From contig JAKVOU010000001.1 of assembly GCA_022482625.1 (NCBI GenBank), forward strand, positions 1,288,784 through 1,352,783: DNA of 64,000 nt. The letters run 5' to 3'. Both the position numbers and the translations under genes were made by a program. This stretch comes from Spirochaetia bacterium (GTDB taxonomy: Bacteria; Spirochaetota; Spirochaetia; Sphaerochaetales; Sphaerochaetaceae). The notes beneath the pieces were generated by a model, which saw nothing but the letters and a program-made list of their open reading frames with translations, had not been told where the DNA came from and did not search any database. Numbering within the stretch: the first letter of the stretch is position 1; each line of letters starts with the position of its first letter. Shown here one piece after another: positions 35,272 through 43,282 of the stretch.

Positions 35272-37662
35272 TTATGATTCTTTTTTCTCATCCAACCAGA
35301 AGAACTGACTTTCATCTTCGCCCCTGGTATGGGTCTTTTCAAACTTTTCAAAACCATATGGCTTGACACCACCATCACGGGAAATTACAGAGCGAGTATT
35401 TTTCTTTTTCCGCCTATCCATATCATAGCGGCTCTCCCTGCGTTCCCTATCCCCTCGATATCCGGAATCATCCCGAGATCGGCGGTCGTATCCACCACGG
35501 TCATCATCATGATATCTTCGGCTACCATAGCCACCGCGGTCATCATCACGATACCCACGACTGCCATAACCACGATCGTTATCACGAGACCTGCTGCCGT
35601 ATCCGCGGTCATCATCATGATATCTTCGGCTACCATAGCCACCGCGGTCATCATCACGATACCCACGACTGCCATAGCCACGATCATTATCACGAGATCT
35701 GCTGCCATAGCCACCGCGATCATCATCACGATACCCACGACTGCCATAGCCACGATCATTATCACGAGATCTGCTGCCATAGCCACCGCGATCATCATCA
35801 CGAGACCCACGACTGCCATAGCCTCGATCATTATCACGAGACCTGCTGCCGTATCCACCGCGGTCGTCATCACGGGACCTGCGGCTACCATATCCACCGC
35901 GGTCATCATCACGAGACCCACGACTGCCATAGCCACGATCATTATCACGAGACCTGCTGCCGTATCCACCGCGGTCGTCATCACGGGACCTGCGGCTACC
36001 ATATCCGCCACGGTCGTCATCACGGAACCTACGGCTACCATAGCCACCACGGTCATCATCACGGGACCTGCGGGATCTATCTCCATCAGAGAAACGACCA
36101 GGACTCCTTCTGTCGTCACGGCGATTATCTCCAAAGTCACGTCTGTCACGATCACCTCGGCCAGCACTTCCATCGTCACGGCGAGAACCATGCGATGAAA
36201 AGACTTTATCCAAATCCCTCTTCTTCTGATCATCCATATCAGAATCTTTTTTCCTATCCTTGAGGCTTTCAATCGGTTTTGGTTCACTTGTAGCAACTTT
36301 GACCGGTTCAGAATCATCCCAACGTAGGCTAAGCATGCCGTTGTCAGAATCAGTTTCCTGATCTGAATCAAGGGACTTGATAATATTATCGTAATTATTT
36401 TCTTCGGTGGATTCTGCAGTTACTTCTGTTGCTTCCGTCTCCGAACTTTCCGATCCCTGACTTTCGTCAGATTCCTTGGTCTGTACGGCATCTTCTTGTT
36501 CTGATTTACCTTCCAAGGCAGCATCTTGATCAGTTTTTTCTACCGGAGAAGCATCAATCTCCTGCTGATCATTCAATTCAAAATTTTCATCTTTCTTTTC
36601 TTCAGTATCCATTCTTTCAAATTCCTTTGCATTCCGCAGGATCCTGTCATCGGACCCATTTTCACTGCTGGGCACTCTTTTATATCCAACCCAGTCTTTC
36701 TTCCTAAGAGTAATATTCCTTATCTTTTTCAATATCCAGGTACGGCTGGTACCCTTGTTCTTTGTAAAGCCAGGAGCGGCTACCGACTTAGTAATCTGCT
36801 CCAAATCAAAACCTCTTACTCTCCCACTGTCCATTTGAAAAGTACTCAGATTCGTCGAAAAAACCATGGTACCTTCAGGAGACAACAAATTGTTCAATAA
36901 ATCGAAATAACGTACATAATCTCGCCTAACATCAAAATCCTCATCCATTCTGTGGCTATTTGAAAAACTTGGTGGATCAAAAATAATCAAATCATATATT
37001 TCATTGTTCTTCAATGCTTCAATGATAAATTTCAATGCATCAGACTGGATGCATCGGTACATATCACCTATAAACCCATTGGCACCCAGGTTCTGTCTGG
37101 CCCATGCAGTAGAAGGCCCACTCAAATCAACAGAAACAACCTCCCTGGCACCACCACCGGCAGCATACACAGAAAATGCACCAGTATAAGAAAACAAATT
37201 CAGTACTTTGAGCCCTTTGCTCATCTCGCCAACCATCTGTCTGGTCCTCATATGGTCAAGAAACAAGCCGGTATCAATATGACTGGTCAAATCAACTGTA
37301 AAGGAATAGCCACTTTCCTTTACCGGTACTTTCAGGCTTTCCATAGCCTGAAGACCATGCTGTTGTCGGCCTTCTCTTTTCAGACGATGCATAAAAACAA
37401 CATGATCTGACTGAATATAGCACATACGACGAACAATATCACAGCAATCAGATATGACGTCATCAGCCAATCCCTCAGGACTATAATCAGTTACCCTTGC
37501 ATAGAGACCATATAAATCAACAGCAACAGGGAGTAAGCCAAGATTTCGGTCATATACCCTCATGCAATCCGTATTCTCATTGAGTACAATGCGCCTCATC
37601 GCCAGAGAATTATGTTTGAGTATCTTTCCAAAATCCTTGTATGAATATTCCAATTCCGTCAA
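35272..37662 (-). CDS. RlmK-type rRNA methyltransferase with acidic and RGG-like repeat tail
   Basis: The first ~325 of 796 residues match RlmK, the C-terminal half of RlmKL, a 23S rRNA m7G methyltransferase: CMRVYDRNLGLLPVAVDLYG, HIDTGLFLDHMRTRQ, SAM-binding LNLFSYTGAFSVYAAGGG and catalytic IIFDPPSFSNS. An acidic Glu/Ser/Asp-rich region (~350-450) follows, then a basic tail with 16 tandem units of two kinds (RxxRDDDRGGYGS and RSRDNDRGYGS, ~526-729) and a Lys/Arg-rich end. The tail is intrinsically disordered and of RGG/RG RNA-binding character, unusual in a bacterial methyltransferase. The start is TTG with AGGGA 7 bases upstream. I infer that the tail binds rRNA or RNA condensates. Confidence 0.85.
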   Translation of the reverse strand: MTELEYSYKDFGKILKHNSLAMRRIVLNENTDCMRVYDRNLGLLPVAVDLYGLYARVTDYSPEGLADDVISDCCDIVRRMCYIQSDHVVFMHRLKREGRQQHGLQAMESLKVPVKESGYSFTVDLTSHIDTGLFLDHMRTRQMVGEMSKGLKVLNLFSYTGAFSVYAAGGGAREVVSVDLSGPSTAWARQNLGANGFIGDMYRCIQSDALKFIIEALKNNEIYDLIIFDPPSFSNSHRMDEDFDVRRDYVRYFDLLNNLLSPEGTMVFSTNLSTFQMDSGRVRGFDLEQITKSVAAPGFTKNKGTSRTWILKKIRNITLRKKDWVGYKRVPSSENGSDDRILRNAKEFERMDTEEKKDENFELNDQQEIDASPVEKTDQDAALEGKSEQEDAVQTKESDESQGSESSETEATEVTAESTEENNYDNIIKSLDSDQETDSDNGMLSLRWDDSEPVKVATSEPKPIESLKDRKKDSDMDDQKKRDLDKVFSSHGSRRDDGSAGRGDRDRRDFGDNRRDDRRSPGRFSDGDRSRRSRDDDRGGYGSRRFRDDDRGGYGSRRSRDDDRGGYGSRSRDNDRGYGSRGSRDDDRGGYGSRRSRDDDRGGYGSRSRDNDRGYGSRGSRDDDRGGYGSRSRDNDRGYGSRGYRDDDRGGYGSRSRDNDRGYGSRGYRDDDRGGYGSRRYHDDDRGYGSRSRDNDRGYGSRGYRDDDRGGYGSRRYHDDDRGGYDRRSRDDSGYRGDRERRESRYDMDRRKKKNTRSVISRDGGVKPYGFEKFEKTHTRGEDESQFFWLDEKKES
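35475..36085 (-). repeat. Coding tandem repeat of RDDDRGGYGSR type
   Basis: About 610 bases of imperfect 33- and 39-base units inside the rlmK-like gene, encoding 16 peptide units. Units share near-identical DNA (for example CGGTCATCATCACGA on the plus strand), so length could change by slippage or recombination. Confidence 0.8.
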
Positions 37663-37747: not shown

Positions 37748-38206
37748 ATGGAAGACACTGAAGCAACAGAGTTTCTACATGAACTAGAAAACAAATGGCA
37801 AGGCACTATTTCATGGAAAACTTTCGCCACGTGGTATTGCTGTTCCGATGGAACTCTCAGAGAGTATGGTGTTTTCTTGTTCAAGATCAACAATACCTTT
37901 CATTTTGAGGACTTCTATCGGGAATCAACAATCTTCGGCATTCCTTTACCAAAAAAGAAAAATGAAAAAAAGTTCATAAAAATGGAAAGATCTTTCACGA
38001 TAGGAGATGTTGCAGATGTCTTTCAGATTTCACAAAAATCAGCATTGGATATCGCTGAAGGACGACTACGCATTGAGCAAGCAAAGAAAATTGGAAAATT
38101 CGATAAAATATTTAGGAAAGTCGTTACCATTGTCAAACTCAAGGACGGTAGTGCCCATTGCTTTGAACTTCTCGATACAAAACAATTCAAGACCCAATTA
38201 CAATGA
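37748..38206 (+). CDS. Conserved-looking small protein, unknown function
   Basis: The 152-residue soluble protein is not assigned to a family. The N-terminal 70 residues are aromatic-rich (ISWKTFATWYCC). The C-terminal half reads like a helix-turn-helix or peptide-binding domain (FTIGDVADVFQISQKSALDIAEGRLRI) followed by strands (VVTIVKLKDGSAHCFELLD). AAGGAGA lies 7 bases before ATG. It diverges from the rlmK-like gene across 85 bases and ends at a terminator shared with rpsD. Confidence 0.75.
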   Translation: MEDTEATEFLHELENKWQGTISWKTFATWYCCSDGTLREYGVFLFKINNTFHFEDFYRESTIFGIPLPKKKNEKKFIKMERSFTIGDVADVFQISQKSALDIAEGRLRIEQAKKIGKFDKIFRKVVTIVKLKDGSAHCFELLDTKQFKTQLQ

Positions 38207-39334: not shown

Positions 39335-42300
39335 TTACCTAACTGGATAATTAGCTTTGAGATAATCCATCAAGGCATCGCTAAGCATACCATATGTGCC
39401 GATCACCTTGGTAAACATCGTGTAGCCATCACCACCAGCAACCATGAAGTCATTGGTACAGACTTTATATGGAGTAGAATCCTTCTTGATAATCTTGTCA
39501 CCAACCAAGACTCTCAGAATCCGCTTGCCAGGCTTTCCGTACTTATTGTACACAACCCTGAGATCTGTCTGGCTATATGAACCTGCAGGTTCAGGCAATC
39601 CAGAATAGCCATGCTCCAAAGCTGCATAGACCTGTTCACCAGTCAATTCGCAGACTGTCATGGTATTACCAAACGGCAACACAGTCATTACATCATTGAT
39701 CGTAACATCGCCTGCAGCAAGGCTAGCTCTGATACCACCACCGTTGGTGATTGAGAAATCAGCGCCTGTAGCTTCAGTCATTGCAGTACAGATCATCCTT
39801 GAAAGGTCAGTAGGCCTTGTACGGACATCAGCCCTTTCACCATCCAACCATACTGGCAGTTTGGCAATGACCGTGCCATATTCCTTATCAAGCGCAGCCT
39901 GCTTGTCTGCAATAAAGGATGCAACTTCAGGATCATCTGGGACCTCAGTAATTCCATATTTCTGTGCAAGCTTGCTCTCAGCAGGATCCAACACATCAGA
40001 AGCCTTGACAAGAGTCTCTGTCTGACCTACGGCCTTGTCGTTGCGAACTGACACATCGACAACACCTACATTCTTCATGTATTCCCCGGCCTGTACAATC
40101 AAAGCCCCGTTTACAACCTTGCCACCTTCGATAGCATCATGGCTATGTCCGTCTATAAACAGATCAATACCATTGATATGTTTGCAAATGTCAATGCTTG
40201 TCAAGCCACTGGTAACATTCGGATTGATGCCGACGTGACCAAGTACCACTACATAATCAGCATACTTATGAGCCATGTTGACTGCAGCTTGCGCCTCATC
40301 AAGTACATCCAAAGGATTCACGAACTTAAGACCGACAACATTCTTTGGATTGGTAGAAGTCATGGTATCAGGAGTAGTGAGACCAATGACAGCCACTTTG
40401 AATCCATTGAATTCATAAATTTGATATGGCTGCAACAGGAAATTGCCCTTGCTATCGAGAATGTTGGCACTCAACACCTTAATATTGGTGTACTGGTCAG
40501 CATATTTGGCAGCTTGGATAAGTCTATCCTGTCCAAAGTCAAAATCATGATTTCCTGGTGCAACTGCATCATAGCCCAGCATATCAAGCATTACACCGGC
40601 AGTCTCACCCTGGAACATGTTGACAATATTAGTGCCTTGGCTTACATCACCTGCATCCAAAACCAAGATATTGTCAGTCAAACTCCTTGCAACCTGCAAC
40701 ATGGTAGAAAGTTTTGGATAACCAATTGTGGCCTTTCCATCAGAAGCGAGCCGTCCATGCACATCATTGGTATGAACAATAAACAAATCGAAATTAGGAT
40801 TAGAACCCTTGGCTTTAATTATCGGAGTCACACCATACGGATATTTGACAGCAGCCTTTTCGGCAGCAGCCTTCTCGGCAGCGGCCTTCTCAGCGGCAGC
40901 CTTCTCAGCGGCAGCCTTCTCGGCGGCAGCCTTCTGGGCAGACATATTCATTTTAGCCGTATATGCCGCACTTACCTTGGCAAGGTAACAAGCAACATCA
41001 TTATCCGCAGGAATGGAAGCTATACCATATTGTTTTGCCAGCGCACTGTGGGCAGGATCGTTGATGTCAGAGGCCGATACAAAACCAAGGACCTTCGTGG
41101 ACATCCTGTCACCCTTCACGGACACATCCACCAGACCAATCTGCTGCAGCCCGGCTCCGGTCCCTACCAACGTCGTCCCGTTCACCATTTCGGTATACGG
41201 CTTGTCCGACGCCTCAACGAACAGGTCAATGCCCTTGATGTTCTGGCAAATCAGCTTAGCCGTATACTGGCTGTCGTCGACGTTGCCAAGCACCACGACG
41301 TAGTCAACCATCGACTTCGCCATGTCAACTGCCGCCTGTGCGTTCTTTATGATGACAGGATCAGTAAAGCTGAGCCCCTCAGTGTCATTCTTTGCAGCCG
41401 CAGGAGAAGTCAGCCCGGCAACCAGCACGGTCTTGCCGTTGAAATAGTAGACCTGATACGGCTGGAACACAGGGTTCCCCTTCTTCGTGAGCGTATTGGC
41501 CGAAAGGACCTTCAGGCTCGTGTTCTGGTAGGCATAGGAAGCAGCCTGCTCCAGACGAGCGGTACCATAGGCAAAGTCACCGGCACCAGGAGCCACGGCA
41601 TCATAGCCCAGCATCGCCATCAGCACGCCTGCAGGCTCCCCGCCGAAACTCTCGACCAATGCACTGCCACTGGTCGCATTGCCCGCATCAAGGAGCAAGG
41701 TATCGGCAGTAAGACTCCTGCCAGCCTTCAGCAAAGTAGCGAGCTTGGCATAGTCTATGCCATCAAGCGCGCCCTTCACGTTCCCGGTAGCGGCAATGTA
41801 CAAATCAAAGTCAGAAACCGCCTTGTCGCTCTTCACGATAGTCGAGACATTATAGGGATATTCAGTAGTCTTCTTGGCGGCAAGTTTCTCAGCAGCAGCC
41901 TTCTGGGCAGCGGCTTTCTCGGCAGCGGCTTTCTCAGCGGCAGCCTTCTCGGCAGCGGCCTTCTGGGCAGCGGCCTTCTGGGCAGCGGCCTTCTGGGCAG
42001 CGGCCTTCTCGGCAGCAGCCTTCTCAGCGGCAGCCTTCTGGACTGGTGTCATCATTTTTTCTGCATATGCCGCACTTACCTTGGCAAGATAACAAGCAAC
42101 ATCATTATCCGCAGGAATGGAAGCTATACCATATTGTTTTGCCAGCGCACTGTGGGCAGGATCGTTGATGTCAGAGGCCGATACAAAACCAAGGACCTTC
42201 GTGGACATCCTGTCACCCTTCACGGACACATCCACCAGACCAATCTGCTGCAGCCCGGCTCCGGTCCCTACCAACGTCGTCCCGTTCACCATTTCGGTAT

Positions 42301-43282
42301 ACGGCTTGTCCGACGCCTCAACGAACAGGTCAATGCCCTTGATGTTCTGGCAAATCAGCTTAGCCGTATACTGGCTGTCGTCGACGTTGCCAAGCACCAC
42401 GACGTAGTCAACCATCGACTTCGCCATGTCAACTGCCGCCTGTGCGTTCTTTATGATGACAGGATCAGTAAAGCTGAGCCCCTCAGTGTCATTCTTTGCA
42501 GCCGCAGGAGAAGTCAGCCCGGCAACCAGCACGGTCTTGCCGTTGAAATAGTAGACCTGATACGGCTGGAACACAGGGTTCCCCTTCTTCGTGAGCGTAT
42601 TGGCCGAAAGGACCTTCAGGCTCGTGTTCTGGTAGGCATAGGAAGCAGCCTGCTCCAGACGAGCGGTACCATAGGCAAAGTCACCGGCACCAGGAGCCAC
42701 GGCATCATAGCCCAGCATCGCCATCAGCACGCCTGCAGGCTCCCCGCCGAAACTCTCGACCAATGCACTGCCACTGGTCGCATTGCCCGCATCAAGGAGC
42801 AAGGTATCGGCAGTAAGACTCCTGCCAGCCTTCAGCAAAGTAGCGAGCTTGGCATAGTCTATGCCATCAAGCGCGCCCTTCACGTTCCCGGTAGCGGCAA
42901 TGTACAAATCAAAGTCAGAAACCGCCTTGTCGCTCTTCACGATAGTCGAGACATTATAGGGATATTCAGTAGTCTTCTTGGCGGCAAGTTTCTCAGCAGC
43001 AGCCTTCTGGGCAGCGGCTTTCTCGGCAGCGGCTTTCTCAGCGGCAGCCTTCTCGGCAGCAGCCTTCTGGGCAGCGGCCTTCTCGGCAGCAGCCTTCTCA
43101 GCGGCAGCCTTCTCGGCGGCAGCTTTTTCAGCAGCAGTCTTTTCAGCTGGCACAGGTGCCTCTGCAACTGGTGTGCTTGGAACCTGTTCGACCTTAGTCG
43201 CAGTAGAAGCACAACCTACAAGGGATATGATCAGCGATGCCGTAAGCACCGATGTCATAATTTTACTGGACAAACGCTTCAC
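39335..43282 (-). CDS. Lipoprotein with three 5'-nucleotidase modules, two catalytically dead
   Basis: The 1315-residue protein has a lipoprotein signal ending LVGC (Cys24), then three UshA-like modules (~105-405, 473-773 and 810-1315) joined by Ala-Glu-Lys pentad helices. Module 3 has every metal site (TNDVHG, DAGDVSQG, GNHDFDFG, LGHV, GHSH) and a nucleotidase C-terminal domain (TNGGGIR, FMVAGGDGY), so it should be an active nucleotide hydrolase. Modules 1 and 2 are identical over long stretches, lack that domain and have lost the ligands: TGNVKG, DAGNATSG, GAGDFAYG, LGNV, EASDKP. They are pseudo-enzyme modules, perhaps binding nucleotides or acting as spacers. GTG start with GAGGAGG 7 bases upstream. 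Confidence 0.9.
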   Translation of the reverse strand: MKRLSSKIMTSVLTASLIISLVGCASTATKVEQVPSTPVAEAPVPAEKTAAEKAAAEKAAAEKAAAEKAAAQKAAAEKAAAEKAAAEKAAAQKAAAEKLAAKKTTEYPYNVSTIVKSDKAVSDFDLYIAATGNVKGALDGIDYAKLATLLKAGRSLTADTLLLDAGNATSGSALVESFGGEPAGVLMAMLGYDAVAPGAGDFAYGTARLEQAASYAYQNTSLKVLSANTLTKKGNPVFQPYQVYYFNGKTVLVAGLTSPAAAKNDTEGLSFTDPVIIKNAQAAVDMAKSMVDYVVVLGNVDDSQYTAKLICQNIKGIDLFVEASDKPYTEMVNGTTLVGTGAGLQQIGLVDVSVKGDRMSTKVLGFVSASDINDPAHSALAKQYGIASIPADNDVACYLAKVSAAYAEKMMTPVQKAAAEKAAAEKAAAQKAAAQKAAAQKAAAEKAAAEKAAAEKAAAQKAAAEKLAAKKTTEYPYNVSTIVKSDKAVSDFDLYIAATGNVKGALDGIDYAKLATLLKAGRSLTADTLLLDAGNATSGSALVESFGGEPAGVLMAMLGYDAVAPGAGDFAYGTARLEQAASYAYQNTSLKVLSANTLTKKGNPVFQPYQVYYFNGKTVLVAGLTSPAAAKNDTEGLSFTDPVIIKNAQAAVDMAKSMVDYVVVLGNVDDSQYTAKLICQNIKGIDLFVEASDKPYTEMVNGTTLVGTGAGLQQIGLVDVSVKGDRMSTKVLGFVSASDINDPAHSALAKQYGIASIPADNDVACYLAKVSAAYTAKMNMSAQKAAAEKAAAEKAAAEKAAAEKAAAEKAAVKYPYGVTPIIKAKGSNPNFDLFIVHTNDVHGRLASDGKATIGYPKLSTMLQVARSLTDNILVLDAGDVSQGTNIVNMFQGETAGVMLDMLGYDAVAPGNHDFDFGQDRLIQAAKYADQYTNIKVLSANILDSKGNFLLQPYQIYEFNGFKVAVIGLTTPDTMTSTNPKNVVGLKFVNPLDVLDEAQAAVNMAHKYADYVVVLGHVGINPNVTSGLTSIDICKHINGIDLFIDGHSHDAIEGGKVVNGALIVQAGEYMKNVGVVDVSVRNDKAVGQTETLVKASDVLDPAESKLAQKYGITEVPDDPEVASFIADKQAALDKEYGTVIAKLPVWLDGERADVRTRPTDLSRMICTAMTEATGADFSITNGGGIRASLAAGDVTINDVMTVLPFGNTMTVCELTGEQVYAALEHGYSGLPEPAGSYSQTDLRVVYNKYGKPGKRILRVLVGDKIIKKDSTPYKVCTNDFMVAGGDGYTMFTKVIGTYGMLSDALMDYLKANYPVR
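40961..41956 (-). repeat. Tandem duplication, copy 2 (encodes module 2)
   Basis: This ~1-kb block matches 42065-43060 at an offset of exactly 1104 bases (368 codons); in the parts compared I saw one mismatch (40985 versus 42089). The offset keeps the reading frame. Such identity points to recent duplication or gene conversion. Confidence 0.85.
42065..43060 (-). repeat. Tandem duplication, copy 1 (encodes module 1)
   Basis: The partner of 40961-41956. The flanking Ala-Glu-Lys linkers, built of 15-base units, differ in unit number and in Glu/Gln choice, and would favour slippage or crossing-over between copies. Confidence 0.85.

Follow-up and report, generated by a model that had tools for sequence, protein, structure and literature searches.

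Introduction

RlmKL (YcbY) helps the assembly of the 50S subunit in Escherichia coli (PMC11194073). In eukaryotes, mixed-charge KKE/D tails bring snoRNP proteins close to nascent rRNA and thereby help its modification (PMC11528048), and among bacterial RNA-binding proteins, arginine is enriched in low-complexity regions (PMC6821194). Here, we analyzed a spirochaete gene that joins an RlmK-type domain to a long mixed-charge tail. The gene lies in a contiguous stretch of 64,000 nucleotides, which we refer to in its entirety as the window. We found no description of such a tailed RlmK-like protein in the open-licence literature.

Results

A stand-alone RlmK-type enzyme with a long extension

The gene consists of one open frame that starts with TTG. 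A further TTG, three codons further in at 37653, matches the starts of related proteins better in the alignment, so the start is uncertain by three codons. The product is composed of an RlmK-type domain, an acidic linker, tandem units of Arg, Asp, Gly, Tyr and Ser, and a distinct C-terminus:

35272-37662 (-): gene of the tailed RlmK-type methyltransferase, one open frame, 796 aa
36688..37662 (-): RlmK-type methyltransferase domain, residues 1-325 (profile, structure and fold matches)
36223..36654 (-): acidic linker predicted to be disordered, approximately residues 337-480 (charge metrics, pLDDT mostly <50)
36313..36333 (-): LSLRWDD, a short motif within the linker, residues 444-450 (orthologue comparison)
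35461..36078 (-): Arg/Asp tandem repeats of mixed charge, residues 529-734 (TRF, composition, pN/pS)
35275..35364 (-): KPYGFEKF...RGEDESQFFWLDE, the conserved C-terminal motif, residues 767-796 (orthologue comparison, motif profile)

Residues 1-325 carry the intact motifs DTGLFLD, NLFSYTG and DPPSFSNS and were predicted confidently by AlphaFold, with pLDDT mostly <50 beyond. The RlmK half of the NCBIfam RlmKL profile NF008748 matched residues 9-313 (E 7e-79), the best sequence match was to the E. coli RlmKL structures 3v8v/3v97 (E 1.2e-51), and Foldseek likewise placed E. coli RlmKL first by fold. By its full-length homology to the K half and its SAM-binding and DPP motifs, the protein belongs to the RlmK-type 23S rRNA methyltransferases, as the initial annotation of this DNA had proposed. 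It falls outside the RlmKL equivalog NF008748, which has a curated cut-off of 466 bits and calls for both halves: it scored 265.8 bits, and profile positions 396-702 alone were matched.

The second RlmK domain of the genome resides within a full RlmKL (G000:C1), a 755-residue frame with the motifs DTGIFLD and DPPTF. Thus, the tailed enzyme is a separate, stand-alone K-type paralogue. A tree built from 59 domains separated this group of stand-alone enzymes from the K-domains of RlmKL with a support of 99/95; a few other stand-alone spirochaete enzymes sit on the RlmKL side of this tree. Because the same genome encodes an RlmKL with its main motifs, m7G2069 cannot be assigned to the tailed enzyme, whose target could differ. 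The initial reading as a 23S m7G enzyme therefore stands for the enzyme type and has become uncertain for the modification.

With one exception, DTGLFLD and DPP are conserved in the tailed orthologues, six of which have variants near motif I or IV, indicating that catalysis is apparently under selection almost everywhere. In the exception, L023 (genome G004), the catalytic motifs are degenerate (FTGLTLE, NLFANTG, DSPNF), and the tail and its terminal motif are intact. This one MAG sequence gives a single hint that the function of the tail may be separable from catalysis.

The repeat tail is translated and nearly neutral

The repeats span about 206 residues and are built from 13- and 11-residue units, for example GSRDDDRGGYGSR and SRDNDRGYGSR. 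Tandem Repeats Finder (TRF) reported a 39-bp unit in 15.8 copies at 35492-36073 (score 471). The 13-residue units differ from one another chiefly at synonymous sites, with a pN/pS between units of 0.10 in the coding frame; the two remaining forward frames give 2.1 and 2.0. Since the ratio is low in the coding frame alone, the array is evidently read as protein, which bears out the translated tail of about 200 residues of tandem Arg, Asp, Gly, Tyr and Ser described initially. Gene conversion may contribute to the likeness of the repeats; it leaves the frame-specific ratio unexplained. Antisense to the repeats lies an open frame of 289 aa (window 35329-36198 (+)), probably a by-product of the repeat codons.

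The tail had been described as basic and of RGG type. Its net charge per residue (NCPR) is, however, +0.04 over residues 506-750, and a tail so close to neutrality is not basic. An RGG box requires at least two RGG triplets within 0-4 residues of each other. The window protein contains 10 RGG triplets, no pair of which is ≤4 residues apart, and five di-RG spacings without any di-RGG or tri-RG spacing. Among 44 complete tails of orthologues, di-RGG spacing occurred in one, and 27 of the 44 R-rich regions lacked RGG altogether. These counts rule out the RGG box as the defining feature.

The tail of the window protein is an arginine-rich mixed-charge domain: predicted to be disordered, dominated by Arg and Asp, interleaved and near-neutral. 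The complete tails (n = 44) share this make-up, with 24-34% Arg, interleaved Asp and Glu, an FCR of about 0.5-0.7, an NCPR of about +0.03 to +0.11 and ~6-13% aromatic residues. In most orthologues, the charge segregation was lower than the mean of shuffled sequences. Tail length ranges from 109 to 565 residues, and the similarity of the repeat sequence is gone even within a genus. Hence, the persistent feature is an arginine-rich mixed-charge domain, with high Arg content, interleaved acid, near-zero net charge and aromatics. Two orthologues (L040, L129) have short tails that lack the R-rich block and keep the C-terminal motif. Pfam and NCBIfam searches of the tail gave nothing over the cut-off, and similarity searches of the genomes with the tail retrieved no gene other than the tailed RlmK-like one.

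A fixed motif terminates the tail

A PYG(F/Y/M)(D/E)-type motif, absent from the initial annotation, ends all 44 complete tails, where the pattern also accepts A or L in place of P, F in place of Y, and G in the final position. It usually precedes a basic stretch and often FFWxDE. The motif profile gave significant scores only at the locus of the tailed gene or on contig fragments that appear to be its end, severed within the repeats. A comparison of the motif with solved structures yielded no match, and AlphaFold did not place it confidently on the methyltransferase (pLDDT about 40, with a shallow alignment in this region).

The acidic linker is variable

Residues 337-500 have an FCR of 0.45 and an NCPR of -0.16. 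Of the 44 complete tailed orthologues, 16 have a linker with a net charge of at most -20 and 26 one with a net charge above -10; an LxLxW-like motif was found in 27. The acidic block had been suggested to regulate the tail by charge pairing. As a general rule this was discarded, given that 26 of 44 orthologues have little or no such block, yet the net charges of linker and tail are anticorrelated (Spearman -0.55, with relatedness and length ignored). In eukaryotic proteins, nonspecific RNA binding can be suppressed by acidic clusters (PMC8348266), which is consistent with the linker where it is present. In genus g11 (L251, L252), a long, largely acidic insertion within the methyltransferase domain replaces the long acidic linker after it.

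The tail was gained once in a spirochaete family

We compared 61 relatives, then 119 genomes of the same spirochaete family (22 genera) and a class-wide sample. The relatives include Sphaerochaeta sp. and Spirochaetales MAGs, so the tailed family is presumably Sphaerochaetaceae or a near neighbour of it. Within the family, nearly every frame was far longer than the domain, with 423-1315 residues (partly upstream overhang) versus ~320 for the domain alone. The long upstream frames of L120, L113 and L122 were rejected as domains, as they look like open overhang.

The tail is kept across about 100 family orthologues with a handful of exceptions. The short frames of G065 and G137 are cut off by the ends of their contigs, the frame of G091 diverges from the conserved sequence at the domain end, and the other exceptions examined were sequence gaps or frameshifts. 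One absence is real, in the reduced 1.2-Mb genome G009. The initial annotation had named absence of the tail from close relatives as grounds for its rejection; close relatives keep it. In a large-contig genome (G082; L143/L241), the repeat tail contains several frameshifts, attributable to sequencing or assembly error or to decay.

Orthologues from other families in the class-wide sample had tailless frames of ~300-400 residues. In two longer frames (445 and 583 residues) the extra length was not a C-terminal tail, and the out-of-family orthologue L037 has a basic extension of 49 residues from which the motif is absent. On the maximum-likelihood tree (59 domains), the tail maps as one gain and one loss, the latter in G009. 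We conclude that it was gained once in the spirochaete family.

The gene order galE - phosphomannomutase - F1 - rlmK-like - glnS is common to tailed and tailless orthologues, most of the latter at the same locus. In the window and in the congener L114, the locus has rpsD at one flank and MarR/ABC-transporter genes at the opposite one. The small divergent gene F1 (37748-38206 (+), 152 aa) adjoins the methyltransferase gene in nearly all loci compared, tailed or tailless, and its product had no match in Pfam or NCBIfam searches. Also in the window, a frame at 39335-43282 (-) encodes 1315 aa with a Metallophos/5'-nucleotidase unit, preceded by two near-identical copies of a related-looking domain; AAAEK-type repeats lie between the internal domain copies.

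Discussion

A stand-alone RlmK-type enzyme appears to have gained a disordered mixed-charge arm in one spirochaete family. The best explanation, to which we give about an even chance, is that the arm serves as a low-specificity RNA tether on the nascent or assembling 50S subunit, with the C-terminal motif as its anchor. The arginines and aromatics of the arm would contact rRNA, and the interleaved aspartates would hold the net charge near zero, so that binding would be weak and reversible. Such tethering would raise the local concentration of the enzyme at 50S particles that are nascent or still assembling, and the motif would bind one partner specifically, be it a ribosomal protein, rRNA or an assembly factor. 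We infer all steps from RNA binding onwards, including the 50S as the site and the motif as the anchor; the combination of a weak tether with one specific anchor is read from the analogy with the snoRNP KKE/D tails and from the arginine enrichment in bacterial RNA-binding proteins. Phase separation, together with RNA affinity, was seen for blocky R/D peptides, whereas alternating ones did not phase-separate (PMC9324279); a well-mixed tail may therefore bind RNA weakly. Sister-family orthologues manage without a tail, which counts against the tether.

Alternatively, the protein might act mainly as a 23S rRNA scaffold or RNA chaperone in methylation-independent ribosome assembly, with the methyltransferase fold as a docking module. 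In E. coli, RlmB and RlmKL promote 50S assembly in a way that does not depend on modification, and RlmL devoid of methylase activity equals active RlmL in this respect (PMC11194073). The orthologue with degenerate catalytic motifs, which retains the tail and the PYG motif, points in the same direction. It is, however, one MAG sequence, and DTGLFLD and DPP are retained in the rest of the tailed orthologues, so that we regard this explanation as unlikely.

Still less probable is the condensate idea, which goes back to the initial annotation and by which the tail would form a nucleolus-like focus in the bacterial cell and collect enzyme and rRNA there. Its Arg and Tyr/Phe content (~6-13% aromatic) amounts to a sticker-rich composition, tails reach 565 residues, and in eukaryotes nuclear speckles are sites where R/D mixed-charge domains build up (PMC9324279). 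Nevertheless, the alternating peptides of that study failed to phase-separate in vitro, and charge segregation below shuffled controls in most orthologues is the opposite of the pattern that favours coacervation. Moreover, most orthologues lack RGG boxes, and the tails differ in length, between 109 and 565 residues. Tandem-repeat expansion could also have left the tail as a neutral side product without specific function. This would fit the great differences in repeat sequence and length between genera and the tailless sister families and reduced genome, but is very unlikely in view of the ~100 orthologues that keep the tail, its constant, interleaved charge make-up, its fixed C-terminal motif and the pN/pS of 0.10 between repeat units.

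Returning to the tether, a bolder version would make it a bacterial counterpart of the snoRNP tails, in which arm and docking motif recruit a second, stand-alone RlmK-type enzyme to nascent pre-rRNA and organise ribosome assembly in part independently of methylation; this we put forward as a doubtful idea. The fixed C-terminal motif predicts one specific partner, which makes the question of the tail testable. Tailed and tailless orthologues at a conserved locus represent a natural experiment on mixed-charge tails of rRNA-modifying enzymes in the absence of a nucleolus, and the finding draws attention to a second enzyme of RlmK type in spirochaetes that is uncharacterised.

Comparison with known systems

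E. coli RlmKL is homologous to the window protein over residues 10-311, with the same fold and the DTGLFLD and DPPxFSNS motifs. In contrast to RlmKL, the window protein lacks the RlmL half, belongs to a separate paralogue clade and carries a long mixed-charge tail. This tail resembles the mixed-charge tails of eukaryotic RNA proteins more closely than an RGG box. As in RGG/RG-box proteins, Arg, Gly and Tyr occur close together, yet the tail is nearly neutral and without di-RGG or tri-RG. The arginine-rich mixed-charge domains (R-MCD) of eukaryotic nuclear-speckle proteins likewise consist mostly of interleaved R and D with a slightly positive net charge, whereas the tail is bacterial, has Gly/Tyr or Pro/Phe spacers, sits on an rRNA-modifying enzyme and ends in a fixed motif. 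The snoRNP KKE/D tails are also disordered mixed-charge tails on rRNA-modification machinery, for which targeting to nascent rRNA is proposed, as it is here; they differ in being Lys/Glu based and part of an RNA-guided machinery, with no sign of common ancestry.

Among bacteria, Arg-rich low-complexity extensions also occur on rRNA pseudouridine synthases (TIGR00093), an unrelated enzyme. The Pseudomonas protein L233 has a C-terminal Arg-rich region (18% R over 220 residues) that is less acidic than the RlmK-like tail, and L231 from a Chitinophagales MAG has a long N-terminal RDGGGGYQNRNYN repeat region. As Arg-rich extensions thus already exist on other bacterial rRNA-modifying enzymes, what is new here is a family-wide tail of single origin with a dedicated terminal motif.
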